A stretch of DNA of 64,000 nt from Amphibalanus amphitrite. Lineage: Eukaryota; Arthropoda; Thecostraca; Balanomorpha; Balanidae. Both the position numbers and the translations under genes were made by a program. The stretch covers positions 1,116,001-1,180,000 of the forward strand of contig NW_024881518.1 of the NCBI RefSeq assembly GCF_019059575.1. The letters are read 5' to 3'. A model generated the notes under the pieces. That model searched no databases. It worked only from the letters and a program-made list of their open reading frames with translations, and was not told where the DNA came from. Each line of letters starts with the position of its first letter. Position 1 is the first letter of the stretch. Positions 11,601-50,063 of this stretch are shown here, piece by piece.

Positions 11601-14173
11601 GGTGGTCGATGCGAAAAAGGGAGGAAAGGAAGGGGAGAAAGATAGAGCAAGAAAGGGAGAGGAGAGGGAGAGGGAGAGAGAGAGAGGGAGAGAGAGGGAG
11701 AGAGAGAGAGAGAGGGGGGAATGAGGAGATGCAGATGAAGAAACATAATAAAAGAAAAGAGAGAGCGGGAATGAATTAACCGCTGCCCCGCCGTGCCATC
11801 GCCTTTCTATACGGCCTTGCGTGATAAGACAGGAGCAGCACTGCGCGACCCTCACAGTCCTTGTGGTGAGGAAGACAACGCTCTGACTTAGTCCCGGACA
11901 CACCTGGCCTCAACAATGATGACGGGCCAGCTGTCTGAACTTTTGCTTGTGGGTTAGCATAGAATCTAAGATGCGCACACGCATTGTGGGTTCTAGGGGA
12001 CACGCTTGAGGGAATATTGGAGCCGAATGAAATGAGTCCGCAGGCTGCCTATCATTATCAACGCATCCTCACCGCATTATTTAGAGGGAAGAAACGTTAC
12101 AAGCAGATACGTTATCAAAGGACCATATCTAAAGCAGTGGGCGATAAGGTTAGATGCACATCGTTTTTTATTGTTACGGTAAACGTCTAAGCACGTCTGA
12201 GCTCTTTCTGCTCACGTTAATGTTATTAATAGCTCATATCTTCCATAACCTAACTTGTCTCACGGTAAATGCGCCCTTTGCAGGTGTGTTTGAGCTGAAT
12301 TTTCTATTTTAGCGTTGCTTTAGCCATCTTCATCCCTTCCCATCCCAACCCGCTCCCTACCTAGCCTCTCAACACCGTCGTTCAACGAGTACGTCCCCCC
12401 CCCTCCCCAGCGCCCCATCCGGGGGTGTCTCACCTCTTTTTGCGTCGTGCGCTGCTGTAGCCTGCTCCACTGAGACTGACGGAGCCAAGCGGGTCAAACA
12501 CCACTGCCAGGCCGATCAGGATGACGACAGAGCGTAGCCAGTTACAGATGACCAGAGCTGCGGGAGGGGGCGGGGGCAGGTCAGGTCATTGCAGTGTTAG
12601 GCCATTGGTCACGAGGTCATAAGAGGGTAGGAGGGAGACAGACAGAGCTCACAGAATTAAAGGTCTGGGTCTGATTCCCCTCCATTTGCTTTACCATGAT
12701 GGCCTGCACGGTAGTTGGCCTTTGTCCACCTTTCTCTGACCTTTGACTGACGTATGATGATCCGTACGATCGCTGCTGACCTATGATGACCTTAAGGATC
12801 ATTGCTGAACTGTCCCTGACCTTTGAGTGACCTTTGATGACGTTTGGGATCATTGCTGTCCTTTCTCTGACCTTTCACTGACCTATGATCTGTAAGGTCG
12901 TTGCTGACCTTTATCTGACCTTTCGCTGACTTATGACCTGTAGGATCATTGCTGACCTTCCCCTGACCTTTCACTGACCTATGATGACCTGCACGGTCGG
13001 AGAGGTGACCACACAGTGCCGAATATCCGAGCTCAGCCAGACGGAGCCCGCCACGTCCCAGCCGACAGAGAACAGGAACAGCGCCAATCTGGGGGGAACA
13101 CAGAGAGAAAACACGGTCACAAAAGGTTCAGCGCAGTAACAGCGGTGGGCACTCGGCAGTCACAGTCGACATCACACACATTAGGACAGCGGCCGCCCGG
13201 CGTCTCTAATTGTAATGGTGCAGGGCAGGTAGACGGTAAGCAAGAGTCACCTTTCATTAGCCGCAAGACCCATCAAGAAGTTCGGGGCAAGGTACCGCCC
13301 TTTCCATCCAACATACCCTTCTTAGAAAAAATATCGAAGCAAAATGTTTGCATATATCACTGAGTAATCCATACCTGCAGTACAGCGCAGACCCATCCCC
13401 ATCGACAAGCGAGGTGCAGGGACTCCCTCCCCTCCCTCCTTTCATCCCTCACTGACCTGCAGTACAGCAGTGAGGGCACGGCTCGGCGCGCCGCCGTCTC
13501 CATCACCGCACCACGTCCGCTGCAGACGATCAGAGACACCAGTAGCGGAACAGAGACCAGCAGCTGGAAGCCGCAGCCCAATATGTAGGTGGCCAGGGTG
13601 CCCCGCTGGGCGCACGTGCCGCCCGGGTCATGCGTCAGGTAGATGGTTGTCACCGCCAGAAGCCTGCAGCGGGAGCGGAAGTCAGAGTTAGGGAGTGCAG
13701 AGTCGGGGTTGAGTCGGAGTCGGTAGGAGTCGACAGTTATTCCGGAGTCGGAGTTGGAATAGATTTTTGGACGCCGGAGCCGGAGTCGGAGTAACCGAAA
13801 ATTCATCGACTCCGCAAACCTGCCAGGGCTACGGAGTCGGACACGGTTGGAGTCAGAGTTACCGGAAATTCATTCGACTCCGCAGCAATGATCAGGGTTA
13901 TAGAAAGAAGCAGGAGGTAACAGCGAGATACTCGGATTGACAAGGGCGGGATATAGAAGGAGGTTAAAGTCAACACACAATGACACAAGTCATAAATACC
14001 CCACCCCTGAAGGCTCTATCTAAGATAAATCAGCGATACTGTCGTTGAGTCGCCAGATTCCTCTTCTCGATCACTCACCAGGAATAGTTGATGACCAGCT
14101 CGAGGGCGGCAGGAAAGACAAAGTCATCAGAGGCCACTATCCACAGCCTACCAAAGGCTTGCAGTCCAGGCAT
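5673..14173 (-). CDS. DAGLB: sn-1-specific diacylglycerol lipase, DAGL beta-like (3' end missing)
   Basis: A membrane serine lipase that releases 2-arachidonoylglycerol-type monoacylglycerols from diacylglycerol. The 14 coding exons (high to low) are 14173-14079, 13663-13457, 13088-12979, 12557-12434, 10182-10088, 9885-9739, 9455-9308, 8960-8837, 8455-8315, 7862-7751, 7195-7103, 6742-6588, 6296-6162 and 5795-about 5673. Each has AG/GT borders and phases join without a stop, giving about 603 residues. The start is [11 protein letters not shown], in an exon whose acceptor is at 14224. Exons 1-4 give four membrane segments. A Cys-rich CCLCNTAAL segment precedes the lipase fold. The nucleophile is Ser437 in GHSLGAG and the acid is probably Asp489 in CGDDLVPRL. 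The candidate His592 is in LPGHVLHV. The family continues another 40-60 residues; no such exon was found at 1-5600. If the last exon were not spliced it would stop at 5637. The short C-terminus fits the beta type. Confidence 0.93.
6265..6396 (-). repeat. Duplicated acceptor and 5' end of lipase exon 13
   Basis: The 36 bp at 6265-6300, covering the exon 13 acceptor and its first codons ([11 protein letters not shown]), recur at 6361-6396 with about six changes. The upstream copy keeps a CAG acceptor and a similar frame but runs into intron sequence. Confidence 0.75.
7340..7707 (+). mobile_element. tRNA-derived SINE in a lipase intron
   Basis: An A-box-like TGGTAGAGCGTTGG at 7364-7377 and a B-box-like GGTTCGAAGC at 7421-7430 lie about 45 bp apart, and flanking CCCGTC/GACGGG can pair as an acceptor stem. 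A body of about 250 bp follows and ends in an A-rich tail near 7690-7707. The spacing and loose boxes argue for a SINE head, not a working tRNA. Confidence 0.55.
7940..8075. repeat. Degenerate GGGTTA-type tandem repeat
   Basis: Imperfect units of about 17 bp around CAGGGTTACGGAT lie in a lipase intron. There is no coding content. Confidence 0.55.
9138..9264. repeat. 18-bp tandem repeat, about 7 units
   Basis: Units of TGATCTCTGATCTTACCG alternate with a variant carrying ATATC in place of CTCTC. They lie in the intron between lipase exons 7 and 8. Because 18 is a multiple of three, the array is open in several frames, but it is intronic. Confidence 0.85.
10140..10280 (-). repeat. Tandem duplication of the lipase exon 5 acceptor region
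   Basis: The 60 bp at 10140-10199 (5' half of exon 5 with its acceptor) recur at 10221-10280, 81 bp away. Both copies keep a usable CAG acceptor and the same frame, reading [15 protein letters not shown] twice. The upstream copy then lacks the rest of the exon. The phase check uses the 10182 acceptor. Confidence 0.8.
11611..11725. repeat. Purine-rich (GA)n microsatellite
   Basis: Imperfect GAGAGG/AGAGAG repeats in the 2.3-kb lipase intron 4. The rest of that intron (10200-12430) shows nothing else recognisable. Confidence 0.85.
12690..12995. repeat. Degenerate repeat rich in TGACCT half-sites
   Basis: About five units of 55-60 bp have the pattern CTGACCTTT..CTGACCTATGATGACCT..ACGGTCGTTG. 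TGACCT (complement AGGTCA) is the nuclear-receptor half-site and occurs many times here. The array runs into lipase exon 3, which begins (as read on the plus strand) at 12979. Confidence 0.65.
13678..13880. repeat. GAGTCGGAGT-type low-complexity repeat
   Basis: Short imperfect units of GGAGTCGGAGT lie between lipase exons 1 and 2, with a duplicated segment at 13787-13820 and 13850-13885. Confidence 0.6.
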
Positions 14174-19217: not shown

Positions 19218-19665
19218 CTTCAGGCTTCATAACAAGCAAATTCAAGACCCTGAGGGTTGATCTAATAATCAAACCTCTAGGTTGAACTTAAAATATGTTT
19301 AAAAAGACATAGAAAACAACGCTACCCTCAGAGAGGTTTAACTTCAACCACTGAACTTGCACTGAACTCTATTACCGGGGTTACATGAGCGATCCGTTCC
19401 AAATACGCACTACGCTAATGCGCATCAGCTCCCCACAAACGGATCTACGGCACCGGTTACATGAGACTAATTCGTTTTATCTACGTCAAACGGATCTTGT
19501 TTGGCTCACCCGGGCTGACTCCTCGACGGCCGGTAATTCGCATCACAAACGGAATAGGATTAGCGTACAGTCATGGCGCAGTTGCGGCATTTACCGGGAC
19601 GACTATGACCTACGATGAGGTAACTGTAGCCTTAGATCTGGGTCATCCCGTTGATCTAGTTCTGT

Positions 19666-21471
19666 CAGGGGCGGATCCAAGGGGGGGGGGTCACATGGGT
19701 CATGGCCCCCCCCCCTTGAGGCCCGGGGGCCCAAAGACCTGCCAGGGGCACCACCGGCCTATCAGGGGTATCACAGTCCTGACAGGGGCACCACAGGACC
19801 GCCAGGGGCACCACAGGCCTAGCAGGGACACCACGGGCCTGGTGCCCCTGGGCCCTGACAGGACTGTAACGCCCCTGACAAGCCTGAAGTGTCCCCGGCA
19901 GGCACGTGGTGCCCCTGACAGGCCTGAGGCGCCCCTGCAAGGCCGGTGGTGCCCCTGGCAGGCCTGTGGTGTCCATGGCAGGCCTGTGGTGCCCTTGCTA
20001 GGCCTCTGGTGCCCCTGACAGGCTTGTAATGCCCCTGGAAGGACTGTGGTGCCCCTGGGCCCTGACAAGCCTGAGGTGCCCCTGACAGGCCAGTGGTGCC
20101 TTGCTAGGCCTGTGGTGCCCCTGGCAGGCCTCTGGTGCCCCTGACAGGCTTGCGGTGCCCTTGGAAGGACTGTGGTGTCCCTGGGCCCTGACAATCCTGA
20201 GGTGCCCCTGACAGGCCCGTGGTGCCCTTGTTAGGCCTGTGGTGCCCCTGGCAGGCCTCTGGTGCCCTTGCTAGGCCGCTGGTGCCCCTGGCAGGCCTCT
20301 GGTGCCCTTGCTAGGCCGCTGGTACCCCTGCGCCCGGAGAGGACTGGTGCCCCTGAAAAGTCTGAAGTGCCCCTCGGCAGGCCCGTGGTGCCCCTGACAG
20401 GCCCAAGGTGCCCCTGCGAGGCCGGTGGTGCCCCTGGCAGACCTCTGGTGCCCCTGGCAGGTCTGTGGTGCCCCTGGCAGGTCTGTGCCGCCCCTGGCAG
20501 ACCTGTGTTGACTGGTGCCCCTGCTAGGTCGCTGGTGCCCCTCACAGACCTGTGGTGCCCCTGGGCCTTGACAAGAGATGCCTGAGATGCCTGGCTATGA
20601 CAGGCTCGTGGTGCCCCTGATAGACCAGTGGTGCCCTTGCTAGGCCTGTAGTGCCCCTGGCAGGCCTCTGGTGCCCCTGCTACCCCTGCGCCCGGAGAGG
20701 ACTATGGTGCCCCTGAAAAGCCTGAAGTGCCTCTCGACAGGCCCGTGGTGCCCCTGGGCCCTGACAGGCCCAAGTTACCCCTGCGAGGTCGGTGCTGCTC
20801 CTGGCAGGCCTCTGGTGCCCCTGGCAGGTCTGTGGTGCCCCTGGCAGGCCTGTGTTGACTGGTGCCCCTGCTAGGCCGCTGGTGCCCCTCACAGGCCCGC
20901 GGTGCCCCTGGAAGGACTGTGGTGCCCCTGCCCCTAGGGGTGCTCATGGGCCCAACAGGCCCGTTGTGCCCCTGACAGGCCTGTCGTGTATACTTGCTAG
21001 ACCTGTGGTGCCCCTGCTTCCTGGCAGGCCTGTGGTGCCCCTGGCGGGCCTGTAGCGCCCCTACAAGGCCGTAGGTGCCCCTGACAGGTTTGTGGTGTCC
21101 CTGGAAGGACTTTCGTGCCCCTGACAAGCCTGAAGTGTCAAGGACAGACCCTTTAGACGCCAGGGTCAAGTTCGTCGGACTGACAACGATTTGCTTACCT
21201 GATAAGGTTCCTGGTAAGTACTCACTACTCAGCGTCCACAACATATATATACACATAGCACATTCATATATACTTGCTTACAATTGGTAAATGAGGTTGT
21301 GGCTAAGAGTTAAGATACTGACTAAAAATAAAAATAAAAATAAAAACTGAAAATGGGGGCACCACCAAAATGAAGTGGACGAAATCCGTTGAGTTTTTAA
21401 TTTTGGGTATAGGTAGGGGCACCACTTCGATTCATGACCCTCCCCTTGGAGTTATCCTGGATCCGCCCCTG
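19666..21471. mobile_element. hAT-like non-autonomous element, copy 1
   Basis: Termini are CAGGGGCGGATCCA on the left and, inverted, CAGGGGCGGATCCAG on the right. The 8-bp target duplication AGTTCTGT is perfect (19658-19665 and 21472-21479); 8-bp duplications and CAGGG-type ends define hAT. The body is mostly a GC-rich minisatellite, then about 330 bp of unique sequence. No transposase. It splits the reverse-transcriptase frame of the surrounding LINE. Nearly identical to 25778-27224, so mobilisation is recent. Confidence 0.95.
19720..21145. repeat. 20-bp GC-rich minisatellite inside hAT copy 1
   Basis: About 60-70 imperfect units of GGTGCCCCTGGCAGGCCTGT run nearly 1.4 kb. The unit on the other strand contains CAGGGGCACC, which matches the first seven bases of the element terminus (CAGGGGC). 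The many proline- and glycine-rich open frames through it are artefacts of the repeat. Confidence 0.9.
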
Positions 21472-22576
21472 AGTTCTGTTCGACTTTTCAAAGGCTTTTG
21501 ATGTGGTGCGCCATACCATTCTTCTAGAAAAACTCAGGTTAGTCGGTGTCCAAGGGCGACTTATCACATGGCTGACAGATTTCTTGGTGGGGCGTACGAT
21601 GCAGGTTCTTGTTAAGGGCACCACGAGTTCAGCTGCGGAGGTTCGGAGTGGCGTTCCTCAGGGATCGGTTTTAGGACCCATTCTTTTTCTGGTTTACATC
21701 AACCACGTTGCGTCCAGTTTGTCGTGCAGTTATAAGATCTTTGCTGACGATCTTAAAGTATTTATCAAACTAGACAACGATAAACACAACACCAGTGAAG
21801 AGGCGCTACAAAAGGATATAGACTTGCTCCACTCTACGGCAGAGTCTTGGGGTCTCAGCATGAACCTCAGGAAGTGCGCCGTCATACGATTTAGGCGACG
21901 ATTCCATGACTTCGAGCCCCGTGCATACACACTGGCTGGTGACACAATTCCCTGCGTTACGTCATGTAGTGACCTGGGTGTTATCATCGACAACGAGATG
22001 AAATTCCATGAACACTGTGCCAGCATAGCAGCGAAGGCTGGAGGAGTTGCTCACAATTTCTTGAAATCGACCAGGTGTCGCTCGCCTGACTTTATGACTC
22101 ATATACTGAAATCTCACATTCGCCCCATTCTCGAGTACGCGTCACCGATCTGGAACAGTGGCTATGTACAGGATCTCAAAAGATTAGAGTCTGTTCAAAG
22201 GCTCTGGACTCGCAATGTGATTGGGCTCCGCAATATGGAATATGGTGATCGCCTAAAGGAACTTGACCTATTCTCTGTGAAGGGACGCCTCCTTCGAGCC
22301 GATATTATCAAATGCTGGAAGATTTTTCACGGCCACAGTAAGATATCCCCGGAGATCCTCTGGGATCTGGAGGCCGACAACAGAACGCGCGGGCATAGTA
22401 GAAAGATAAAAACGTGTCAGAGTCTTATAGATGCAAGGTCACGGTTTTTCACCCACAGAGTCGTGCGCGATTGGAATGCCCTCCCAGATTGGCTGGTGAA
22501 CGAGGAGTCCCTGGTGCAGTTTAAAAAGGGACTGAAAGCCGCACTGGGCAGTAGATTGTACGAACACACAGGATAA
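21472..22576 (+). pseudogene. Reverse transcriptase fragment of the CR1-like LINE
   Basis: An open frame of about 365 codons with the non-LTR reverse-transcriptase core. FDFSKAFDVV (motif A) begins right at the hAT junction. SGVPQGSVLGP lies near 21648-21680 and FADDLKVF near 21740. Further motifs include DLGVIIDNEMKF and the C-terminal thumb region, ending in TAA at 22574. No endonuclease domain is present, since the copy is 5'-truncated. The roughly 20 residues upstream of motif A are on the other side of the hAT (19605-19665). The frame is otherwise intact, so the insertion is young. Dead as an autonomous element. Confidence 0.9.
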
Positions 22577-24700
22577 GAGAAGGCAAACGATCCACATCTC
22601 ATCCTTCATCCCCCCCCCCCCAGGTAAGCGCCCCACCCTTCCCAAGTTGGGGCGGGGTTATACGCGCCTGGGCTACCTATCATATTCCGCCCTTACCCCC
22701 TAGGTAGCTGCTGCCCGCCCTTCTCGAGCTGGACCGGGTGGACTAACCTAGGTTACCTATCCTGACCTTTCCTTCCGAGAACGTATCACATTTCGGTACC
22801 CTCTTTTCTCATTTACATAATTGATCATCTTGTCTAGGATTCTGGCACTTAAAACACGCACCAGTTTTCTTTTTTCAGTGTTTTACCAAATGCAGACGCA
22901 CCATTCCAATTCCTTGCCTGAGGTCCAGCCATCTGCCCACCCAAGGAATTGGCGCGTCTCTGCACGCAATAGGTTTCCACTCCTTCCTTTACGAGCCGAG
23001 GTTGTGGAAACCTAACAGGTGAGTTTAACAGGTGAGTTTGACTGAGCTAAATTTTAAATACTTATATCATTTGATAGGCTCAAAAACATTTAGAATTAAC
23101 ATGAAATCAAAAAATGAAAACAAAGTTTTCTTGTTTTAAGTCAGTGGGCACTGATTCGCCATGCAGCGACAGCAGGGTGGTCAGAAAAAATTATCTATCA
23201 AAATATTTCATTCATTTTATTTCACATGCAAAGACTAAACCAAAATACCAACATTTTTTTGCTATTTTCTACGAGGCAGCCAATAAAAAAAATGTTAAGT
23301 ATTTTGCATTTTTGACGCTTCCAGTCAGCAAAGAATAGTTCTTGTGAAATACGGCCCGAATCGTGTGCCTCGGACGTTTCGGTTACATGAGCGATCCGTT
23401 CCAAATACGCACTACGCTAATTCGCATCAGCTCCCCAAGAACGCATTCAGTGCACCGACTACATGAGCAAATTCGTATCAGTGACGTCAAACGGATCTAG
23501 TTTGGCTCTCGGCCCGATGCGCATTACAAACGGAATAGCATACAAATGTGGCGCACTTCCGTAGCAATAGAGGTGACTAAATTAAAAATTTATTATCTTA
23601 TGTCTTTTTTGCATTTAATCTGCTCAAAACATTCTCAATTAACTTAACAAAAAAGTTGAACATAAAGTTGTCTTGCTTTGACTCATTGGGCAATTGCCTC
23701 TCTTGATTCGTCTGTAGTGCTGTCAGAAAAATGTTTCAACTGAAATTATGTGGATATTTACTATTTGGTTTTCACTATATTTATTGTTGAAAACTTAGCA
23801 AAATACCGACATATTTTTTAAATATTATTCCAAAAGAAGAAAATGAGAAAAATACCTATTATTTTGCATTTTAATGTTTCTTTTTGCGAAGAAATAGTTC
23901 CTGTAATACGTATCTTGGTCCTATTCGCTTCTAAGCCTCTTTCTCAGCGGATTTTGTTCGGACCGCCGATTCGTATTAGCAGGTGCAGGGGGTCATCGTT
24001 TCTATGTTGCGCCATAGGGAAGGCTTTTTGGGCCAATCAGAAGGTAAATGACGTCAAAGGTCGTCCACTTTCTTTGCTGTTTTCTCAACTAAAACGGGAT
24101 GAAGTGGAACGTTTTTGGTCTCAAATGGTTTAATAAGACATTTTCTACAATACCTAAAAACTTGTAGTCTTTGAGTTCTAGCGTAGCAGTGAATTAGTTG
24201 GGAATTACGATTTATGACAGTGGTTTAAGGAATTGAAGCAGAAATTTAGCTATTTTTTACATTTATTGCGCGCGTGTTACAATCTTCTGCTTGCAAATTT
24301 GTGTATTTCAATTGACATCAATTGTTAGTTGTTATTTGATACTTTTCTGTCTGGCATTTCTGAGTTTTTTTTTCTGATTATTACCAGCAAGTAGTTAATA
24401 AGAATTATCATATACTTTTGTAAATGTAGAAATATTGGTATGTATTCCAATACCTAACAAAATTGCATGTTTGTTTGTTTTAAGTGTGGTCAATTGTCTA
24501 TAGCCTAGACGGACAAAGGAAGCTGCAATTGCTTCTGTAACTCATGTAAGCTGCCATAATTGATAAGTATCTGGACATCCACGGGGGAGCCATCCGCTTC
24601 TCTTCTGTCTTTGACAACCAGTACTTTTAGAATGAGCGAGTGCTTTGCATTACAAAGATCCGGTCCAACAGGCCTGCAGTCCGCACAGCCGGTAAATGTG

Positions 24701-24890
24701 AAGATGAAGTACAGTGAAGATAAAAAATCTAACCTGACCTAACCTTACCTACTAACCAAAAACTTTCAACCTGCCAACCTACAATCTACAAACTTACAAC
24801 CTACTAACCGAAAACCTACAATTTAAAGCCTACAATCTACCAACCTACAACTTAAAACCTACTGACTCACGTCTCACTGTACTTCATCTT
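24701..24890. repeat. Foldback element with a CCTACAA-type array in the loop
   Basis: A perfect 17-bp inverted repeat (24701-24717 and 24874-24890) encloses CTAACCTGACCTAACC followed by irregular CCTACAA units. The order matches the loops at 31763-31962 and 34930-35042. Confidence 0.75.
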
Positions 24891-25240
24891 GATCTACACA
24901 TATAATATTGCACAGCCTACACAGCTAGGCCTCAAACTTCTGTGTGCACTATGGTGTCAGGCAATTGGTGAGTGGTTTGCTGAATATTTTTAGGTGAACA
25001 GGATTCCTTTCAAATTGAAAAATAATAATTATGAATGAGTAGGTATGTTTTGTGTTCGTTTTTTTATTGGTTTTAGGGCTCATGTGTTTTCTTCAATCCT
25101 TGTTAGCGCATTGGTATGATGGAGGAGTATCACTCCAACTCCCCTAGGCCCTAGTTTGATTAGAAGAAATGTTAACTATGTTATGACAGATCATGACCAA
25201 AGTACCTGGAGCAGCGTTTAAAGTCACATCTTGTTTACAG

Positions 25241-25358
25241 TGTCCCACCGACCAGCTGTGGTGACGCCAGTCGCCAACAGCTACAGCGCTTTTCCAGGAG
25301 GCTTCAGTTATTCTGTGACTGGTGACCAAGGCACGACACATCACCCAGCAACTCACAA
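25241..25358 (+). other. Possible exon inside the 9.4-kb unit
   Basis: Flanked by a good acceptor (TTGTTTACAG at 25231-25240) and a good donor (GTAAGT at 25359). One frame is open throughout and includes VTPVANSYSAFPGGFSYS. No family recognised. Its phase does not match the open frame at 25745, so the two are not simply consecutive coding exons. Confidence 0.3.
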
Positions 25359-25777
25359 GTAAGTGAATCTGTGTGTGTGTGAGCAATGTTAATGTGCCTA
25401 TCTGTGCAGTTGTGGCAGCTCCCAAAAACAATTACCTAATTCAAAGGGGAAAATGACAATGGAGCATGGCTAATTTGCTATCATATTTAGTGCAGGCTAA
25501 GGTCAAAAGGTTGTGTCTACCGAGTCACATACAATAACAAACTGTTTTACACAGGTTGTTTGGCGAGTTGCTGACATTCATCGATTTTGGCAGCTCCTTT
25601 GCCATGGCATTTAGTGACTAAAATACAATTTTCCAAGCAAGGAAGTGACATTTTTTGTTTACTGAATAGTTATTCGTTTTACTGGGTATTATGCATCCTT
25701 CAGCCATCCTTAATTTGCATTTCATGGAAGGTTTTTGTTTTCAGTCTCGCTGGCGGAGAGTGTTGCTGAGCTGTGCA

Positions 25778-27224
25778 CAGGGGCGGATCCAAGGGGGGGG
25801 TCACATGGGTCATGGCCCCCCCCTTGAGGCCCGGGGGCCCAAAGACCTGCCAGGGGCACCACCGGCCTATCAGAGTCCGTCCTGATCAGGGCACAGTCCT
25901 GACAGGGGCACCACAGGACCGCCAGGGGCACCACAGGCCTAGCAGGGACACCACGGGCCTGGTGCCCCTGGGCCCTGACAGGACTGTAACGCCCCTGACA
26001 AGCCTGAAGTGTCCCCGGCAGGCACGTGGTGCCCCTGACAGGCCTGAGGCGCCCCTGCAAGGCCGGTGGTGCCCCTGGCAGGCCTGTGGTGTCCATGGCA
26101 GGCCTGTGGTGCCCTTGCTAGGCCTCTGGTGCCCCTGACAGGCTTGTAATGCCCCTGGAAGGACTGTGGTGCCCCTGGGCCCTGACAAGCCTGAGGTGCC
26201 CCTGACAGGCCAGTGGTGCCCTTGCTAGGCCTGTGGTGCCCCTGGCAGGCCTCTGGTGCCCCTGACAGGGTTGCGGTGACCTTGGAAGGACTGTGGTGTC
26301 CCTGGGCCCTGACAAGCCTGAGGTGCCCCTGACAGGCCCGTGGTGCCCTTGTTAGGCCTGTGGTGCCCCTGGCAGGCCTCTGGTGCCCTTCCTAGGCCGC
26401 TGGTGCCCCTGGCAGGCCTCTGGTGCCCTTGCTAGGCCGCTGGTACCCCTGCGCCCGGAGAGGACTGGTGCCCCTGAAAAGTCTGAAGTGCCCCTCGGCA
26501 GGCCCGTGGTGCCCCTGACAGGCCCAAGGTGCCCCTGCGAGGCCGGTGGTGCCCCTGGCAGACCTCTGGTGCTCCTGGCAGGTCTGTGGTGCCCCTGGCA
26601 GGTCTGTGGCGCCCCTGGCAGACCTGTGTTGACTGGTGCCCCTGCTAGGCCGCTGGTGCCCCTCACAGGCCTGCGGTGCCCCTGGAAGGACTGTGGTGCC
26701 CCTGCCCCTAGGGGTGCTCATGGGCCCAACAGGCCCGTTGTGCCCCTGACAGGCCTGTCGTGTATACTTGCTAGACCTGTGGTGCCCCTGGCGGGCCTGT
26801 GGCGCCCCTACAAGGCCGTAGGTGCCCCTGACAGGTTTGTGGTGTCCCTGGAAGGACTTTGGTGCCCCTGACAAGCCTGAAGTGTCAAGGACAGACCCTT
26901 TAGACGCCAGGGTCAAGTTCGTCGGACTGACAACGATTTGCTTACCTGATAACGTTCCTGGTAAGTACTCACTACTCAGCGTCCACAACATATATGTATA
27001 CACATAGCACATTCATATATACTTGCTTACAATTGGTAAATGTGGTTGTGGCTAAGAGTTAAGATACTGACTAAAAATAAAAAATAAAAAGAAAAAAAAC
27101 TGAAAATGGGGGCACCACCAAAATGAAGTGGACGAAATCCGTTGAGTTTTTAATTTTGGGTATAGGTAGGGGCACCACTTCGATTCATGACCCTCCCCTT
27201 GGAGTTTTCCTGGATCCGCCCCTG
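25778..27224. mobile_element. hAT-like non-autonomous element, copy 2
   Basis: Same termini as 19666-21471 (CAGGGGCGGATCCA) and a perfect 8-bp duplication GCTGTGCA at 25770-25777 and 27225-27232. It is 359 bp shorter than copy 1, mainly through loss of minisatellite units. The unique right-hand 330 bp are nearly identical in both copies. No transposase. Confidence 0.95.
25830..26885. repeat. 20-bp GC-rich minisatellite inside hAT copy 2
   Basis: Same unit as in copy 1, about 50 imperfect copies. Unit variants occur in the same order over long blocks, so the two arrays share a recent ancestor and differ by block deletion. Confidence 0.9.
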
Positions 27225-27514: not shown

Positions 27515-28437
27515 GCGCAGTCAGGACGCGAGTGTGGTTGCACCGCCCCGGTCCCAGCAACCGCATGGCGGTGGGGACTCACAGCCCGGCTGATGGTTCC
27601 AGATCGTCTTAGCGCAGCTTCTTCTCCGGACCCCGGCGCGGCAGCGATGCTGGTGGTTCGGAGCCGACTGATGGAGGACAGCAAAAGAACAGCAGGACAG
27701 GACAGCACCCTAACAGTAGCCTTCGGTCATGTGGCGACAGCTGGGCCCCGGACCGGTCGAAAGGGTGCTCACTGCTCAGCTGAGTGGGTAACAGTGTCAG
27801 AAAAGTGGCCCGTTTCTAAGTTTTCTTGAACTCGGAAGATTTGTTCTGCGAAAAGTCTTGACTAAAGTAAAGCAATTTTTGTTCTGTGAGCAAATGTTCC
27901 CTAAACAGATGGCCAATGATTTTTGTGTAACAATGTACCTCTACCCATCTATGTCAGCACTTAGGCACTATCAGGCTTGATGGAGCATTTCACAATGGGT
28001 CACTTAACAAAAACCCAACCGCCTGCCCACTATGACTGATTTTTCTTCTTCAGCAGATTTAGTCATCTCTCTCCAGTCTCCATGGCTACTGAATGAAGAC
28101 CTGGACTCCTGAATAGAATGCAGTACAAACTACTGACCTACTCCCAAGAACCAGCACCGCCTGCTACTCTAAGTTCACCAGCTGACAGCTGTTGGCAAAA
28201 CTTTCACTGGTAACCTTGTCCCTCACAATAACTGGTATTAGATTGGCAGCCTGAAGCCCATCAACTGTGATGTGTTATGAACAGGTGATCTGTGAATGGT
28301 GATCACACAGTGTGTGCGTGCATTAACAATTAATCCTGTATTTTTTAATAAAAATGTTGAAAATATTGTCACTCTTTCAACATCTGGTTCAACATGTATG
28401 ATATGAATGAAGGACTACACAGCATGCAGGAGCTGGA
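27515..28437 (+). other. Region downstream of the interrupted frame, with a poly(A) signal
   Basis: CpG-rich to about 27800, then AT-rich. AATAAA at 28347-28352 follows a T run and could end a plus-strand transcript from the upstream exons. No second exon was established. Confidence 0.35.
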
Positions 28438-28815
28438 AATGGGCAATGCCCCAATGGATATGCAGACTTAACGTAATCAGGTGAGATAAACCTGAAAACC
28501 TCGATTTCATATCCATATTAGCATGCAGTGCCTACAAAGTAGTGAATGCTTTAAAAAAACTTAGCTGACAGGCAACAGCAGTTCAAGTTAATAACGTAGT
28601 CAGGTGAGATAAACCTGAAAAGCTTGATTAATTTACACGTACACTGGTCTGAGAAACAACACTACCAAGCTAGTGAGTAGTAAATGGGCAATGCCCCAAA
28701 TGGATATGCAAACTTAACGTAGTCAGGTGAGATAAACCTGAAAAGCTCAGCTTGATTAATTTACATGTACACTGTTCTGAGAAATGACACATATACCAAG
28801 CTAGTGAGTAGTAAA
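28438..28815. repeat. Tandem duplication, about 2.5 copies
   Basis: The segment GTCAGGTGAGATAAACCTGA occurs three times (near 28478, 28596 and 28722). Flanks such as GGGCAATGCCCCA and CAAGCTAGTGAGTAGTAAAT are repeated too. Units are 120-250 bp and imperfect. Confidence 0.7.
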
Positions 28816-29982
28816 TGCTATCAGAAAATTATGGGTACTGGATAAGCATATTACCCATAATACCTATATCAGCACAACCAATCCTACCTTTAAAATCACC
28901 TTCTCACACAAATCAAACCAAGGCCCTACATCAATATAGGTACCAAATCACAAAAATAACACGCGAGTCATATAGGAGACGAGTCATGAGTCTTGGCCTT
29001 TTGACGTCTAAAACACTGCCATCGCCGCACCAACAAGTTCGCTCCCCGCCCGGCTCCCTTCATAATGCAACCGGGCGCAAACTTGTTCTGGATTCTCGCA
29101 GACTATATTTGGTGTTTCCGTGGTGGCAGACTATCCCCTGGTAAAAGTTCCCAATTGCAGTAAAGTATGAAAAAATGATATCAGTAGATGTAAAAAAGAT
29201 TTTTCTTTTCAAAAATGTCAAAATTTAGCAATTTTATAACGTGTGCTGCCCATATTTTACGATAGTCTGCGGGGTCGTTCCGGGCCTGCTAAGGTCAGCT
29301 TCACTTGGATCGTTTAAGACACCTAGACATCATTCATTGCGAAACAAGGTATTGCTAGAATGGAAATTAATTGCTAAAAGTTATAGAATAGTTTTTGTTT
29401 CGTAAAAATGAGCAAAAAATGCGTATGGGGATAATAAGTGACAGCGTCTTTTGAGGTATCACCTTTTTGGTGCCGGCATAAGAGAGCTTGGACGAATTTA
29501 TGGCAAATTCTTTGTGAATAATATTAAAATGAACAAAATAAACAGTTATTGTCTTTTTGATGCCTTTTTCCCATCTGAATTACACAAAAATTGATTTTTT
29601 GTTATTTTACTCGAACTCATGGCAGTAAGATATCTTAACTTGTAATAAATCGACCGAAGGCATTATTTTGTGCTGCATATTATTCATTAAATTTTGTATT
29701 AAAATAAATTGAACATCAAAATCGTTTTTGTCATTCGGCAATGAACTTAACCAGCAACAAATACATTTTTAAAAAATAAATATATTCTCAGACTAGGCAA
29801 CGCTGTCTCGCGCGCTTTTACGCTTGCTTTTACGCGAACGCGCCGGGTTAGTCTCGAGATTTGCGTGAGTTATTGTAAATTATGGGGTAATTTAAGAGTT
29901 AAATGTTCATGTGCAATTTTTCTCGTTTTTTCATACTCAACAATACGATTTTTGTTTAAGGGCTGAGATACTGAGTCTGATA
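28816..29982. other. AT-rich DNA, nothing recognised
   Basis: No gene or complete element. A GC-richer patch at 29020-29120 has an imperfect inverted repeat (AACAAGTTCGC / GCGCAAACTTGTT). Confidence 0.4.
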
Positions 29983-31345
29983 CCGGGGTTACATGAGCGA
30001 TCCGTTCCAAATACGCACTACGCTAATGCGCATCAGCTCCCCACAAACGGATCTACGGCACCGGTTACATGAGACTAATTCGTTGTATCTACGTCAAACG
30101 GATCTTGTTTGGCTCACCCGGGCTGACTCCTCGACGGCCGGTAATTCGCATCACAAACGGAATAGGATTAGCGTACAGTCATGGCGCAGTTGCGGCATTT
30201 ACCGGGACGACTGAGCTAAATTTTAAATACTTATATCATTTGATAGGCTCAAAAACATTTAAAATTAACATGAAATCAAAAAATGAAAACAAAGTTTTCT
30301 TGTTTTAAGTCAGTGGGCACTGATTCGCCATGCAGCGACAGCAGGGTGGTCAGAAAAAATTATCTATCAAAATATTTCATTCATTTTATTTCACATGCGA
30401 AGACTAAACCAAAATACCAACATTTTTTTGCTATTTTCTACGAGGCAGCCAATAAAAAAATGCTTAGTATTTTGCATTTTGACGCTTCCAGTCAGCAAAG
30501 AATAGTTCTTGTGAAATACGGCCCGAAACGTGTGCCTCGGACGTTTCGGTTACATGAGCGATCCGTTCCAAATACGCACTAAGCTAATTCGCATCAGCTC
30601 CCCAAGAACGCATTCAGTGCACCGACTACATGAGCAAATTCGTATCAGTGACGTCAAACGGATCTAGTTTGGCTCTCGGCCCGATGCGCATTACAAACGG
30701 AATAGCATACAAATGTGGCGCACTTCCGTAGCAATAGAGGTGACTAAACTAAAAATTTATTATCTAATGTCTTTTTTGCATTTAATCTGCTCAAAACATT
30801 CTGAGTTAACTTTTCAAAAAAAAGTTGAACATAAAGTTGTCTTGCTTTGACTCATTGGGCAATTGCCTCTCTTGATTCGTCTGTAGTGCTGTCAGAAAAA
30901 TGTTTCAACTGAAATTATGTGGATATTTACTATTTGGTTTTCTCTATATTTATTGTTGAAAACTTGACAAAATACCGACATATTTTTTTAGATATTATTT
31001 CAAAAGAAGAAAATGAAAAAATACCTATTATTTTGCATTTTAATGTTTCTTTTTGCGAAGAAATAGTTCCTGTAATACGTATCTTGGTCCTATTCGCTTC
31101 TAAGCCTCTTTCCCAGCGGATTTTGTTCGGACCGCCGATTCGTATTAGCAGGTGGATACATGAGTCGGTAGTACGCTCCTGATTCGCATTAGCGGTGAAT
31201 CCGATCGTGATACGTATTTGCTTTGCTCATGTAACCGCGGATCGGATCGCCGATTCGTACTAGCAGGTGGCTACATGAGTCGGTAATGCGTTCCTAATTC
31301 GAATTAGCGGCTAAATACGTATTTACTGTGCTCATGTAACCCCGA
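29983..31345. mobile_element. Element B: intact 1363-bp TIR element
   Basis: A complete, uninterrupted relative of element A, flanked by TA at 29981-29982 and 31346-31347. The ends are CCGGGGTTACATGAGC and, inverted, TCGGGGTTACATGAGC. The interior is AT-rich. The two end regions (about 230 and 200 bp) hold several TACATGAG / CTCATGTA sites with spaced ATTCGCATTAGC-type motifs. No open frame is large enough for a transposase. It lies within an insertion in element A, so the family moved at two separate times. Confidence 0.9.
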
Positions 31346-31731
31346 TAAGTGACTCATTCGACTTCGACCATCTTCGTTCAAGGAATCTGAGGTGGGATTG
31401 TTCATGTCAATTTTTGTAACAAGCTCAGGTAGTGGTAATACTTAACATAAACCATGTGTTTTGTCTTAACTTCTCTCCTTCTTGATTATACCTTCACCTC
31501 TACCTAGGCTAAGAAACTGATATTCAAGGGTAGCTGCTTTCACACAAGTAGCCTTCTGGTGGGTTCAGATTGTTTTCTTGCATTTAGTTATGATATGTTC
31601 TTGGATTTCCCTTGTTTAAATTAGGCAAATGTGAGTATTAATATTTATATAGGTATGCATCATTATACTTGAGCAATGGCAATGTAGCCTACCTGCTTCC
31701 TATTAAGTAGATACGAGATTGCATGGGTATT

Positions 31732-31993
31732 CATTAAGCAGGCGTCTCACGAGATGCCAGATTTGAAACATAATCTAACCTGATCTAACCTTGCCTACTA
31801 ACCTACAACCTACAAGCCTAATACCTACAACCTACAAACCTACAATCTACAAACCTACAACCTACAAACACTGCCTGCCTAGGATGCCAGGATGCGACAC
31901 TGCCTAGGATTTAGGGTTCCTTACATCCACAAACCTACAACCTACCTTGCTATTGTAGACAGATCTGGCATCTCGTGAGATGCCTGCTTAATG
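31732..31993. repeat. Foldback element with CCTACAA-type array
   Basis: Arms of 31 bp (31732-31762 and 31963-31993, one mismatch) enclose a loop that starts ATCTAACCTGATCTAACC and continues as CCTACAA units. It has the same architecture as 24701-24890. Confidence 0.8.
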
Positions 31994-33294
31994 ATTACCA
32001 TTGCTTGTTGGTCATGTACAAGTGTTTCACTTTGATATATGCTGCATTTCAACAATGTCTGCCCATTATGCTAAAAAGAAACTGATATAATGCGGTAGCT
32101 GCATTAAAAATTTGGAACCATAGTTGAGTTCCAACTTTGTTCTGCGACCTTTTCAAAATTTTAGTCTGCGAACTTAGATCCCCAAACCACTTTTCTGACA
32201 CTGGTGGGTAATGTCCGCGTCTCGTTAGTGTCCCCGGCCAGGTCCTGAAGGGTAGATGAGGGCGGGATATTCTCCTTTATATAGACGCAGAGCAATGCCA
32301 GAAGAATGGTTTTGCGATCGAGTTGCATGCGCTGTCCCTGCCTGTCGCTCCTGCTGCCGCCGGCGGGGTTGGCGCTAATGGCCATTGACGGGGCTGCTGT
32401 GTTTGTAAATTAGGTTGGATGAACCCCTGCTCTCAGAGTTTTGTGTTGGTCGCTGGTAACCCATGTTTTGTGGCCAGCGTGTTACGAACCCAAGTAGTGG
32501 TTTGACCCCGTGGGGTGCTGTGAGACAGCGCGGAGCGACGCGTGGATGCTGCTGAAACACGCTGATGTTTGTGTGTACCTATCGTCATTTTGAAGTGCTG
32601 CTTGAGTTTGCTCGTTTGTTCTGTCTTACTGTTTTGTGTTTTCTACCAAGATAATGTCGATAAGATTGTTCAATAAAGTTTGAGTTGAGACTTCCAGACC
32701 GGGGAAGACTGATACGTCTGAACCGGGGCCGGCAAAGGCGTCTAAACCGGGACCGATTGAGGCAGCTGGACTGGGACCAACGAATGGCAGCCAGTTCTGG
32801 ACCGAAAGTGGTCGGGCTGCATCCGATGCGCCACCACATACCGTATCACTGGCAGCCATATGCGTTCCTGTCGCAGGCCACCGTTCACGCTTCAGTTTCG
32901 GCGCTGGTGCCCCGGCCGGGTATATGCTCTGCTCGGTATACCTAACTGTTGTGAGCAAAACCTCGTAATCGTACGTCTAATGCTATAGTTGTTGTTCAAA
33001 TCCGCGTAAATTATGACATTCTGGCAACTATGCTGACCCATAACCAAGCATAATAGGTCAATGTTGGCTCAGTCGGCTACGGTCGAAGTTACTCGTATGG
33101 TGTTTTTCCAGCCGATAATGCATCAATATAAACTCCTTCCACACTGGTTTTTGTGGCACCACATTAGCATAAACCGGTTTGCAGGTTTGTAGAAGCTGGT
33201 ATAACGTAATTTAATCGTTCAATATCGCTAAAGTCGTCTCAATTCCTAAAAACGTCCGCATATTGTACTGCATGCGGCTGCCTGATCCGTGAGG
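31994..33294. other. Right part of the 9.4-kb unit, no established gene
   Basis: A CpG-rich patch at 32160-32560 has a 74-codon minus-strand open frame (32385-32161, starting MAISANPAGG). A second GC-rich patch at 32690-32930 has short GACCGGGG-like repeats. No motif recognised; I do not claim a gene. Confidence 0.3.
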
Positions 33295-33612
33295 GTGGAC
33301 GACCTTTGACGTCATTTCGTCAGCTGAGCAAATGTAAACAAACCGCCTGACGAGTTTACCTCCTAATATACGGCCTTGAGCAGGTGGATACATGAGTCGG
33401 TAGTACGCTCCTGATTCGCATTAGCGGTGAATCCGATCGTGATACGTATTTGCTTTGCTCATGTAACCGCGGATCGGATCGCCGATTCGTACTAGCAGGT
33501 GGCTACATGAGTCGGTAATGCGTTCCTAATTCGAATTAGCGGCTAAATACGTATTTACTGTGCTCATGTAACCCCGATATATAATGACTTCAACTCTTCA
33601 ACTTTGCTTCAT

Positions 33613-33720
33613 TTTTTTTTTTTTTTTTTTTTGCTCGGTCGGCCTAGTGCCATACCCGAGCAGGGGGCAGTTACTCCGGCAATTTTCGCCGGGCAGCAAG
33701 TCTTACGTTAAACGGTTTAT
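33613..33720 (-). mobile_element. Poly(T)-headed retroposon tail (SINE/LINE 3' end)
   Basis: About 20 T's, the complement of a poly(A) tail, are followed by a compact GC-rich segment (GCTCGGTCGGCCTAGTGCC). This looks like the 3' end of a retroposed element on the minus strand. The body is too short to classify. Confidence 0.45.
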
Positions 33721-33827
33721 GTGAACCCGGTAGCAAAAACAACGTGGGATCCTATCTTAATGTGGAATCAAAGCTAAGGGAGGTACTCAGTGGCGTACCC
33801 AGGAATTTGCGAAGGACCAGGGCTGGG

Positions 33828-34170
33828 ACGAGAGGGCGCCAATCAAGGAGGGCGCCAACAACAAGGAGGGCGCCACATATCTGAAACTTGAATGTGTCAG
33901 TTATGTTCGTACACGTGCGGAACGAACATAACTGACATACTGGACAGAGGGGCGCCACCCACCATCATCTAGGAGCGCGACGCTATCGATTGGAGGGGCG
34001 CCAATACTGGACAAAGGGGCGCCACCGGCCCACCATATCGTCTAGGAGGGCGCCACTATCACCAGAGGAGCGCCAATACTGGACAGAGGGGCTTCGCCAT
34101 CAACTAGAAGCGCGCCGCTATCGACTGGAGGAGCGCCAACACTGGACAGAGGGGCGCCAGTCACTGAGGG
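33828..34170. repeat. GGGCGCCA-type minisatellite of the outer hAT
   Basis: Units of about 20-30 bp around GAGGGGCGCCAATACTGGACA. An inverted pair of CAGTTATGTTCG-type segments lies at 33897-33935. The array motif resembles that at 44595-45140 in a different element. Confidence 0.75.
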
Positions 34171-34610
34171 CGCCGGGGACGATGAGCCAAAGGGACAGGG
34201 CATGCACGGAATCAGTGTTCGCCACGGGCCGGGCCAGCCCAACGGGCCATGGGCCGGGCTGGGCTACGGGCTGGGCCGGGCCCCCAAATATCATTAGTTA
34301 ACGGGCTATGGACGGGCCGGGCCAAGAGCTTTGTGCACTATGGGTTTTGCGACTAATGTCAATTTAGGAAAATTTGGAAACTGATGCAAACAAAACCCAC
34401 TGGGAAAATACAAAAACTAAACCAAATTTAAGCAATGTGAAAGAAAACCTACTTGATATTGAATTTTGGGAATCTTGAGAATTAGGTATCCAATATCACA
34501 TCATGTCACCAGTCACACATAGGAGGGTTTTCATAAAAATTCCGCAACCAAAAAGATCAGAGAATCTCTAGCATCATTAGTTTGTTAATAAAAGTTAAAA
34601 TGTAGTCATC

Positions 34611-35577
34611 AGTTTTTTACATTAAAGAAACACAATTTTGATGATCATTTCTCCTTCTCGATGGCCAATTACAGCAAAAACAGTTTCAAAACACTTAACT
34701 TCGCACCACTTACCGAAATATAATAAAGAAATCACCCCACCTTCGATGCGCTACGCACACACTGCAGAGACGCAAAATGGCGACATTGTTTTGCCTCTGA
34801 TGCGCCAGATATGTAATTTAAAAGAATTGGATGCGACTACTAAATACAATATCCTGTAACAAGAACTATTTTCATCCTAGGGGACACTGGGAAATCGGGG
34901 TTTTTGGGTGGGGGAGGGGGGTTTTAGATTCAAACCAAATCTAACCTAACCTAACCTAACCTAACCTAACCTAACCTAACCTAACCTAACCTAACCTAAC
35001 CTAACCTAACCTAACCTAACCTAACCTAACCTAACCTAACCTACCACGTTTCCAGGGGTTTGTGCGCTAGGGACGAAAAGGAGTATATCTTAGGTAAGGG
35101 TAAATGGAAAAATGTTAGGTTAAAGAGTTCTGGAATAGGCTCCAGGCCGGCCTGGAGACAATTCCAGAACTCTTTAACCTAACATTTTTCCATTTACCCT
35201 TACCTAAGATATCCCCTATTTGTGGCCAAGGCCACATCATTGGTTCGCGTCGCTAGCAAACACGTTTCTCAATCACCTTCACCCGAAAACCTCGATTTCC
35301 CAGTGTCCCCTAGGAGGAAAATAGTCTATTATCGGCATATTGTATTTAGTAGTCGTATCCAATTATTTCAGGTTACATATCTGGCGCATCAGAGGCAAAA
35401 CAGCGTCGCCATTTTGCGTCCTGGCAGTTGACGTAGCGTGCTGACGATAGGGTGGTTTCTTTATTATATTTCGGTAAATGTTGCGAATCAAAGTGTTTTG
35501 AAGCTGTTTTTTATGTAATTGACCAAGGAGAAACAGTGAAGCATCATCAAATTTGTGCTACCTCAATGTAAAAAACT
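34611..35577. repeat. 967-bp foldback element with a telomere-type array
   Basis: Long arms (about 320 bp, roughly 34611-34930 and 35283-35577, with mismatches and indels) are inverted copies. They start AGTTTTTTACATT and end with its complement. Inside the loop is a second near-perfect hairpin (35085-35212, arms about 52 bp) and the CCTAA array. It fits a Foldback-type element. Target duplication not evident. Confidence 0.85.
34941..35042. repeat. Interstitial (CCTAA)n = (TTAGG)n telomere-type repeat
   Basis: About 20 uninterrupted CCTAA units on the plus strand. TTAGG is the ancestral arthropod telomere repeat. Its place inside a foldback element, with ordinary sequence on both sides, shows it is interstitial. 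Confidence 0.95.
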
Positions 35578-36169
35578 GAAGTATCGCCACTTACTTAGCA
35601 CTACAACTCCAAAAACTAAGAAGCCACTCAACAATGATGGGCTACAGGGCTACATTAAGTTTAACACTTATATATGGCGATAGTGAGACAATTCCAACAC
35701 AGTCTTTTTTCCTTCACCGACGGCTTTTTAACGAACAGAACCTTAAAAGGATACTCACAAAACACACTGTAAGTAACGAGGAACTCTACAGAGTATTACG
35801 CGATGAAAGCTTCTTTAAATGTCCATAAATTTGTCAAAATAAATCACAACAAGCCAGCCCCTTCTCAACAAAATAATTTGCAATCATGGCGGCGGCGCTA
35901 TGTTTATGTGGCGGCATCTAGGTAGTATACACAACAGTATATCAAATAAATACGTTTTTTAAGTAAGTATCAAGGTAAAAAACAAAACTAAACAAATAAA
36001 AAAATAAAACCTAAATCACGAAGTCTGAAAACTCGAACGAAAAACAAAACAAAAACTTGATCATATATGTTTTATTATACAATTGGTCAGAATCGCTACC
36101 TGCCGCAGCTGCGACAATCAAGAAGTGTTCGCTCATTTTCAATTGATGATGATGATGCGTAAAAGTAAG

Positions 36170-38560: not shown

Positions 38561-39260
38561 TACCCAATGACATTTCAAGCTTACCATGTTTTCTGCTTAC
38601 GCTGCTAGCGATATCCATATCTTGAAAAGAGCCTAACATAAAATAGCAAGGAAAGTAGCAGATAGTTGTCCACAGAGATTCGGTTGACACGTGGGCATGA
38701 ATTGAAAATAGATTAAATCAGTTTTGCTGATAAATGGATGGATTTTCTCTTTTTTTGGAAGACAGTGCTAAAGTTAGTGTCACCTATTTTGTATGCTTTC
38801 TCAGGCTTTTGATATTGCAGCATCTGGAGTGAATTTAACAGCAAGGTCAATCCCAGACAGATTCATCAATTCCCATAAGTCAAGCTTTTTATGCTGGTAA
38901 GTGCTGGGAAGTATAGAGTATGTTGCAAATACTTCCTTCAAGTATGCATTAGAGTCACCAATTATGAATGATAATAATTATTCACACACATCAGCTTGCA
39001 AGATAACTTTACTCATAGAATGTAGTTAATGTAATCATGTAAACTTTTTATAGGTGTGTAATCATGACCTAATTGACTGAGGTGCTTGCTGTTACTGTTA
39101 AAATTTGTGCCATAGGTGCTTGAAATGATTATATTCATTGAAAAGAAGGGGGTCATGATTGCCATGTTAATATTCATGCAATTTGAATTGTTCTCAAAAT
39201 AGTGTAATCAATCATGCTTATTATAGCAATAGACTAAGACAATAACTAGATTGCTATTTT
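38561..39260. other. AT-rich remainder of the inner hAT
   Basis: Contains no recognised gene; it is the right-hand body of the element at 34213-39385. Confidence 0.45.
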
Positions 39261-39599
39261 TGACGGGCCGGGCCGGGCTGGGCTTGGAATATTTGCCAAG
39301 AGCGGGCTACGGGCTGGGCCGGGCTCTGAACCCATGGGCCCGGGCCGGGCTGGGCTGGGGATTTTGGGGCCCGTGGCGAACACTGCACGGAATGTCCTGT
39401 ATGTGCGTACGCCACTGGAGGTACTTACGTGTATAGCGAAAGAGCCGAGATGTCTGGAGTCGCAAACACAACAGTGGGAATGACTTTTATTAACAATACA
39501 TAATAGACATGAACACTTGTGAGCTGGTGTCAGTGTAATGGAGCCGGGAAGCTTTCATCGCACTGACAGAAGGTATAAGACCTTCTAGGCTCCAGCCCC

Positions 39600-40010
39600 C
39601 CGGCGGGGCCTTGTTGTGGGGTGTAATAGTCGGGCGAAAAAGTCCTAAATAATAAAAAACCCGACGCCTAACGCAAAGGGCAAAAACCTCGCACCTAAGC
39701 CAAAACGGCGCGAGGGAAAAAGCCCTGTAACCGCGATTAATTAGTGTGTGCGTTTGGGGGTGAGCCGGGAGACGAGGGCTCTGGTTAGCGTTTTAGGGGC
39801 GGCAGCCGCGGCCCTAACACGCTAAAGGCTCTTGATGATCCGAGCGTCGGCGAGAAAGACGAACAGAAGGTCGTGGATATCCGGATGAGTGTCGCCCAGG
39901 AGAGTCGGAAGGTCGAGAGAGAGTCCATGTGTGCTAATGTATTGTACTATATGTCTGCGGTGTTGGTGTAGGTGTGGGCAGTGGAGGAGGAAGTGTGAGA
40001 TGGTGTAGCT
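39600..40010 (-). pseudogene. 3' remnant of a second LINE type
   Basis: On the minus strand from about 40008 a frame reads ISHFLLHCPHLHQHRRHI and later FLADARIIKSL, ending near 39830. The H..HFLLHCP pattern is the Cys/His motif at the C-terminus of Jockey/I/R1-type retrotransposon proteins. About 230 bp of 3' UTR-like DNA follows toward 39600. Only the last 60 or so codons survive. Confidence 0.55.
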
Positions 40011-42020: not shown

Positions 42021-42278
42021 GAAGAGCCATGCGGCGGCAACTAGCCGTGGCCATATTTCGGCTCGGTAGGGCCCCACAGAGCTCATGAGAGCACCTCAAG
42101 GGCTCCTAAGTAGACACGCTTATCATAGGCCACAAGGGTGCCACGCCGGCTTCTGAAGGCTCCTTGTAGGCATCTAAGGGCCCTTTCCGGCCTCTAACGG
42201 CTCCACCCGCCTGTGATGGCTCCACACCAGTGTTTATGAGCGCCACACAGCGGCGCCTTTGAGGGTCATACTAGCGGG

Positions 42279-45140: not shown

Positions 45141-45251
45141 CTTGTAAAAGAAGACTTGTGGGTGTATTTTCATCATTGTAAGGGGGGGGGGGCATATTTT
45201 TGGATTGTTGGTGCATCTGCCCCCACAAAGAGATATAAAATTACACCCCTG

Positions 45252-49969: not shown

Positions 49970-50063
49970 GTGGGCTGCACTGGAGCACCAACGCACATTG
50001 GTCCAGGACACCGTCGTGACTTAGGCTCTGAGAGCTGGTCAGGGGACAGACAGTCACACAAAC

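Follow-up and report, generated by a model that had tools for sequence, protein, structure and literature searches.

A non-autonomous hAT family in Amphibalanus amphitrite whose internal array repeats a putative subterminal recognition motif

Tol2 and Ac are hAT elements with subterminal repeats, and the subject of this analysis is a hAT family, termed A, that is present twice (A1 and A2) in a 64,000-nucleotide stretch of DNA from Amphibalanus amphitrite (contig NW_024881518.1 of RefSeq assembly GCF_019059575.1, forward-strand positions 1,116,001 to 1,180,000; hereafter the window, with positions counted from its first letter). Transposases of hAT elements bind short subterminal motifs in addition to, or in place of, the terminal inverted repeats: the Herves transposase reportedly recognizes one subterminal motif shared by the two ends of its element (PMC3143072), and the BED domain of Hermes binds repeats that are spread through the element ends (PMC10368747). 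Like these elements, family A and T97, a transposase-bearing relative elsewhere in the genome, exhibit 8-bp target-site duplications (TSDs), short terminal inverted repeats (TIRs) starting with CAG, a repeated subterminal motif, and a Dimer_Tnp_hAT frame in the related element. In contrast to the short end sites of Hermes and Herves, A possesses dozens of GC-rich putative cores, most of them 16-31 bp apart, that fill the element.

Comparable arrays have been described in other superfamilies. The tandem repeats within the ends of Galileo/Foldback-type elements of Drosophila hold extra transposase-binding sites, with functional THAP sites in Galileo, and can be likened to the A arrays; the Galileo authors propose that a large number of sites could compensate for the cost of length, but Galileo differs in belonging to the P superfamily, in its use of THAP, and in its long TIRs, whereas the elements described here have 14-bp TIRs and an internal or subterminal array (PMC3688188). 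Muta1 and other Mutator-like elements of the mosquito Aedes aegypti resemble the present case as autonomous elements with subterminal tandem repeats, the number of which varies in derivatives; however, they belong to a different superfamily, and their units of 9-15 bp (9 copies in Muta1) lie within long TIRs (PMC5225508). Miniature inverted-repeat transposable elements (MITEs) with internal tandem repeats, including Xenopus miDNA4, examples from Donax, Porphyromonas BrickBuilt, and the foldback element Tetris, are non-autonomous, as is A, and likewise harbor an internal array whose length varies (PMC9659126, PMC12628747, PMC4596501, PMC4079207). The portions of these accounts that we drew on do not describe an array whose core recurs as an isolated subterminal motif, unlike the situation in A; in Tetris, the repeat and the terminal domain share 37 bp. 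We met no report of hAT core arrays changing in concert with isolated subterminal cores in the literature covered, which took in few subscription journals and did not extend to Repbase, and no paper was found to hold the sequence of the A TIR, CAGGGGCGGATCCA.

On balance, we regard A as a young non-autonomous hAT family whose body would be made of subterminal recognition motifs in greatly increased number and which would depend for its movement on a transposase, supplied in trans, of the T97-lineage type; the sequence comparisons described here make this reading fairly probable. Elements were sought in the window as inverted ends bracketed by 8-bp direct duplications, and the features of the two A copies are as follows.

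19666-21471, plus strand: element A1, non-autonomous hAT, TIR CAGGGGCGGATCCA, TSD AGTTCTGT at 19658-19665 and 21472-21479
19743-19838, plus strand: left array units of A1 (CAGGGGCACCACAGGCC), few in number, adjoining the left end
19841-21140, minus strand: main array of A1, about 62 units of 20 bp, core GGTGCCCCTG
20502-20848: 347-bp block of A1 missing from A2, bounded by a 27-bp exact repeat
21141-21471, plus strand: right arm of A1, without array, parts homologous to the A left arm and to the T97 right end
21356-21365, plus strand: isolated core GGGGCACCAC in the A1 right arm
21416-21425, plus strand: isolated core GGGGCACCAC in the A1 right arm
25778-27224, plus strand: element A2 of family A, TIR CAGGGGCGGATCCA, TSD GCTGTGCA
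25961-26884, minus strand: array of A2, about 44 units

Both copies have the TIR intact at each end (14/14) and exact 8-bp TSDs, features that, together with the initial CAG of the short TIR, are those of hAT elements. A1 is inserted into the reverse-transcriptase frame of a fragment of a long interspersed nuclear element, and joining the flanks minus one TSD restores a continuous frame. The copies are 99.1% identical, with 13 substitutions over 1425 aligned bases plus indels, those in the array reaching 347, 27, and 15 bp; the 27-bp indel is bounded by a 15-bp exact repeat. A2 lost the 347-bp block, because a gap with those end points was found in A2 alone among 38 copies. The bodies of A1 and A2 are array, with a few plus-oriented units by the left end ahead of the minus-oriented block, and no transposase gene was recognized in them, as expected for non-autonomous elements, although only one (26392-27012, minus strand) of the five frames of at least 150 aa in or over the two copies was scanned against Pfam, where it matched no family. 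An earlier note on this DNA, made from the letters alone, had described hAT-like elements at these two places that are mostly 20-bp array and differ in array length by block deletion. Its coordinates were exact, the unit was confirmed as GGTGCCCCTGGCAGGCCTGT (20 bp, with CAGGGGC in its complement), the loss in A2 bears out the block deletion, and the TSDs, TIRs, and hAT transposase frame of T97 uphold the hAT-like identity.

The genome (807.6 Mb in 2644 contigs) was queried with the A left end and the first part of the array, yielding 1871 first-look candidates of which the best 40 were scored (99-100% identity). We fetched 39 copies other than A1; both TIRs were present in 36, and 35 of these had an exact TSD (the other, L052, did not), whereas no TIR pair occurred within the fetched stretch for L038, L047, and L059. 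A set of 38 copies, including A1 and A2, ranged from 1421 to 2770 bp, with a minimum identity to A1 of 98.2% over aligned bases and with right arms, which lay outside the query, 96.3-98.8% identical to that of A1. The apparent youth of the family is partly a selection effect, because the copies are the best-scoring ones. MITEs are under about 0.6 kb in size, and family A exceeds that limit.

Array length varied among these otherwise nearly identical copies, as the earlier note had proposed to test, with 26 distinct deletions of at least 10 bp. For the 21 deletions that were tested, the sizes were multiples of 20 in eight cases, 20n+6 or 20n+7 in nine, and neither in four; the junction homology had a median of 11 bp, whereas randomly placed deletions of equal length gave means of 0.7-5.1 bp, and three junctions had homology of 0-3 bp. 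Unit gains were seen as insertions of 20, 40, and 100 bp, whereas insertions of 309, 810, and 921 bp (in L033, L042, and L050, respectively) were other DNA; the 810-bp insertion has ends CCGGGTGGCCCA, and that of 309 bp is rich in GACTCC repeats. Private deletion sets were common to L030, L034, L041, and L066, and to L044, L045, and L064, at different TSDs; therefore, shortened arrays kept transposing. The array probably changes in length by misalignment of its repeats, as judged from the deletion junctions, and to this extent the growth by repair slippage that the earlier note had suggested holds; its further proposal that the arrays were seeded from end-like sequence is unsupported, as described below.

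The core of the array also occurs in isolation. GGGGCACCAC is present twice in the 317-bp right arm of A, a count reached by 0 of 20,000 random sequences of the same dinucleotide make-up, and both occurrences are exact in 38/38 copies. By the same measure, the three isolated cores of element F, which lies elsewhere in the window (44498-44541, plus strand; GGAGGCCCC in a 148-bp right arm), were matched by 0 of 20,000 random sequences. The array core thus equals the isolated subterminal core in A, in F, and in T97, the transposase-bearing relative.

When the genome was searched with Pfam for the hAT dimerization domain, 150 of 554 candidates were scored and 149 matches resulted. From these, 30 loci were excised, two of which hold the first 12 bases of the A TIR. 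One is T97.

Contig C9, 1466306-1477700, minus strand: element T97, 11,395 bp, exact TSD ATAGTGTT, left TIR 12/14 and right TIR 14/14 relative to A

T97 contains a stop-free 879-aa frame with DUF4371 and Dimer_Tnp_hAT and thus places a hAT transposase frame within an element that shares the ends of A. Two more copies of its gene (T98 and T99) are 98-99% identical; T98 has the right TIR, T99 has none within the stretch, and a left end or TSD was sought in both and not found. From its start, T97 consists of a G-run palindrome as in A (48-bp alignment), a left arm with one core, and a 21-bp array of unit CCTGCACAGAGGGCCTCCTAG; 47/72 core spacings in the first 2600 bp of the element are exactly 21 bp. 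Its exact GGGCCTCC cores number 39 (1 in the left arm, 36 in the array, and 2 in the right arm), such that the motif is repeated in both element ends in the manner of subterminal repeats; the expectation for the array stretch was 0.4, and the maximum in 500 random sequences was 3. T97 has no GGGGCACC, whereas the A copies (n = 38) each have 28-40 GGGGCACC and no GGGCCTCC. Part of the A right arm shows homology to the left arm of T97 (score of 91, against at most 46 among 2000 random sequences); a second alignment, made without a random control, pairs the right ends of the two elements over 58 bases. Each alignment places an isolated core of T97, GGGGGCCTCC, opposite an isolated core of A, GGGGCACCAC. 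On contig C4, a more distant transposase gene (42% identity, one in-frame stop), for which no left end was seen, is followed by a TIR-like CAGTGGCGTATC, and its right arm has a further, different core, GGGCCCTTT, three times within 60 bp (0 of 20,000 random sequences). As a separate observation, a 406-bp repeated block of 30-bp units (L097, T97) overlaps open frames 5' of the transposase and is perhaps a coding repeat of variable length.

The array and the isolated cores thus differ together between the two lineages, as expected of a transposase-recognition motif, and the A arrays are probably subterminal recognition-motif arrays, to judge from these comparisons. A neutral passenger minisatellite, by which a GC-rich tandem repeat arose in a hAT element, altered its length through misalignment, and was spread by element movement with its core having no role, does not predict such co-change of motifs outside the array; this result and the isolated occurrence of the same core in A, F, and T97 count against that alternative, which we consider unlikely for these reasons even though some of the tests reported below fit it well. 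Concerted cores could also be produced by gene conversion between array units and arm motifs without any selection, given that repeats within an element can convert each other and that units are frequently gained and lost; but the bases flanking the isolated cores remain aligned to the T97 arm, such that tracts of about 10 bp would be needed, and we judge this explanation quite improbable.

We suggest that the hAT transposase moving A in trans would belong to the T97 lineage or be closely related to it. The array core of A, CAGGGGCACCAC, is the same motif as the two lone right-arm copies, and the DNA-binding part of the transposase would dock at it; the A array may have descended from an autonomous array of the T97 kind, the many docking sites might help a copy to recruit transposase, and the helper of A itself would have matching specificity.

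Other elements of the window contain arrays of the same general form. Five further TSD-flanked elements are prominent, two of which are nested in others, and there is an additional array, H.

27792-32203: element B, TSD-flanked, without array
33788-39417: element C, TIR CAGTGGCGTACCCA, TSD GAGGTACT (8/8), split by nested D
33834-34175, plus strand: array of C, GGGCGCCA cores mostly 16-31 bp apart, dissimilar spacers, single orientation
34213-39385: element D, nested in C, TIR CAGTGTTCGCCACGGG, TSD CACGGAAT; its top 7-mer is a TTAGG-type run
40499-45251: element E, TIR CAGGGGTGTAATTTT, TSD 7/8, split by nested F; each half holds AGGGCGCC cores, which are often spaced 19 or 22 bp
40707-44586: element F, nested in E, TIR CAtaGGCGTAGGAAC / CAcgGGCGTAGGAAC, TSD AAGGGATG (8/8)
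40813-42000, plus strand: array of F, GAGGCCC cores mostly 25-28 bp apart
1960-3075: array H, unit of about 23 bp with GGGGCCCTCAGAG, right TIR CAGTGGCGTAGCC at its end; a left end and TSD were sought and not found

Arrays occur in five of seven elements (A1, A2, C, E, and F, but not B or D). The most frequent 7-mer was compared with the maximum among 200 random sequences matched in dinucleotide make-up: GGCGCCA in C (8 vs 4), AGGGCGC in E (13 vs 5), and GAGGCCC in F (26 vs 8) exceeded it, whereas B (10 vs 11) and three background stretches (8 vs 8, 6 vs 7, and 5 vs 7) showed no excess. The private arrays that the earlier note had reported in the elements at 33788, 40499, and 40707 are accordingly real features of TSD-flanked elements. 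The arrays of C, E, F, and H each repeat a core of 7-12 bp, mostly at intervals of 16-31 bp, and the spacers are less alike, a contrast that is descriptive because anchoring on the seed inflates the core score. A further point against a passenger minisatellite is that the window has five array families, with F and H partly related, each of which repeats one core. A broader proposition is that whole hAT lineages of this genome carry arrays of tens of transposase-recognition cores as a standard organ, with a code that shifts in concert across array and arms at lineage splits, and that A-like copies would be docking arrays competing for the helper by number of sites; this is possible but doubtful.

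The earlier note had held that the array unit echoes the terminus, as the CAGGGGC of the A unit matches the first seven bases of the TIR. We compared units and TIRs by best ungapped match with 600 shuffles per cell, using hand-chosen representatives for the non-A units. The A unit matched its own TIR over 7 bp (p = 0.05), and C also deviated from the shuffles (p = 0.037), but E (p = 0.64), H (p = 0.46), and F with its observed TIR (p = 0.99; 0.043 with a guessed ancestral form) did not. Units of A, C, and F all give the same score, 7, with the A TIR, such that the match lacks family specificity, and the A unit matches the isolated subterminal cores better than it matches the TIR. The proposed echo is therefore not borne out as a family-specific feature, and the call to test units against shuffled controls found something in A and C and nothing in the remaining families. 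Seeding of the array from the terminus, with units being duplicated pieces of the TIR, draws on the weak A and C matches; the lack of specificity and the results for E, H, and F speak against it, as does T97, whose right TIR equals that of A in 14/14 positions while its unit lacks CAGGGGC. With five families tested, the general form of this rule fares poorly, and we regard seeding as highly improbable.

Several observations weigh against our interpretation of A. The region of the array beyond the query-covered part was examined for constraint in the 38 A copies, and cores and spacers were equally variable (80/430 vs 123/689 variable sites, p = 0.75), as a passenger minisatellite would have it; the two isolated arm cores had 0/20 variable sites versus 45/274 in the rest of the arm, a marginal difference (p = 0.052). 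Among blocks duplicated within arrays, with one pair for each family, the core was favored in F (p = 0.035) but not in A (p = 0.88), C (p = 0.85), or E (p = 0.09), and H had no block. Helical phasing was rejected as proof of iterons, being mixed across families: E (p = 0.002) and H (p = 0.0002) were in phase, C gave p = 0.09, and F was in antiphase. The unconstrained array cores of A fit either redundancy of the inner units or the absence of function, and the inner BED sites of Hermes are dispensable (PMC10368747). The passenger alternative also gains from length changes that are mostly unit steps with homologous junctions and from the existence of tandem-repeat MITEs (PMC9659126, PMC12628747). 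With regard to T97, no DNA-binding domain was called in its frame at E 0.001, its third isolated core (right arm) lies outside the part aligned with A, and in nine unit comparisons the likeness of the T97 and A units was not significant (p = 0.12), although F and T97 were alike (p = 0.002) despite different TIRs and C resembled A (p = 0.042). A helper with the A core GGGGCACCAC was not found, T97 lacking that core. F (42048-42265) and H (2722-2954) share 235 bp at 69% identity, inverted, despite different ends, and are therefore not independent cases of arrays; moreover, the A copies were selected by a query that contained array. The transposase-binding iterons entertained by the earlier note gain indirect support in modified form: the unit core equals isolated subterminal motifs and differs in step with them between related families, but this core is not the TIR and the array cores are without recent constraint.

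Additional features of the window were recorded. Weaker element candidates lie at 48762-51731 and 53297-53674, and two pairs within the array were taken as chance. At 1158-1208, a right end, CACTGGCGGTCCC, that includes a G-run palindrome matches the left end of A at 83% identity over 52 bp; this stretch is perhaps a diverged relative. The region 57740-58940 is element-like: its long inverted ends, GGGGAGAGTGGGG.AAGATGCCC, enclose an array of about 22 bp whose GGGCCCTCA cores resemble those of H. Among 16 stop-to-stop frames of at least 90 aa in 27792-45251, 10 were scanned and had no hAT domain, five were unscanned, and one further frame is a reverse transcriptase. Nested D contains 22 copies of AACCT at 34933-35043 (on the opposite strand TTAGG, the arthropod-type telomere repeat). 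A repeat family with GGTTACATGAGCGATCCG has pieces at 19373-19604, 23040-23985, 29981-31347, and 33379-33579, and the copy within element B matches the other three at 97-100% identity. AGGTCA occurs in clusters, often with a spacing of 10-11 bp, at 12301-13200, 46501-47100, 54301-55200, and 59401-60000. CTCF-like sites were sought with a consensus pattern, which matched the window 11 times (7.1 expected) but neither A1 nor A2, and they were dropped. Relatives in viral contigs were also rejected: two patterns had no matches, and two 16-mers occurred at 19 loci, 0/19 of which had a partner TIR and TSD within the DNA available, and these were taken as chance matches.

Pairs of related hAT elements such as A and T97, with homologous ends but a different core throughout, may allow the code between core and transposase to be read from sequence. 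The arrays suggest a way in which minisatellites could originate and be dispersed as components of transposon ends, and the natural length variants of A bear on the idea that extra sites benefit non-autonomous elements.

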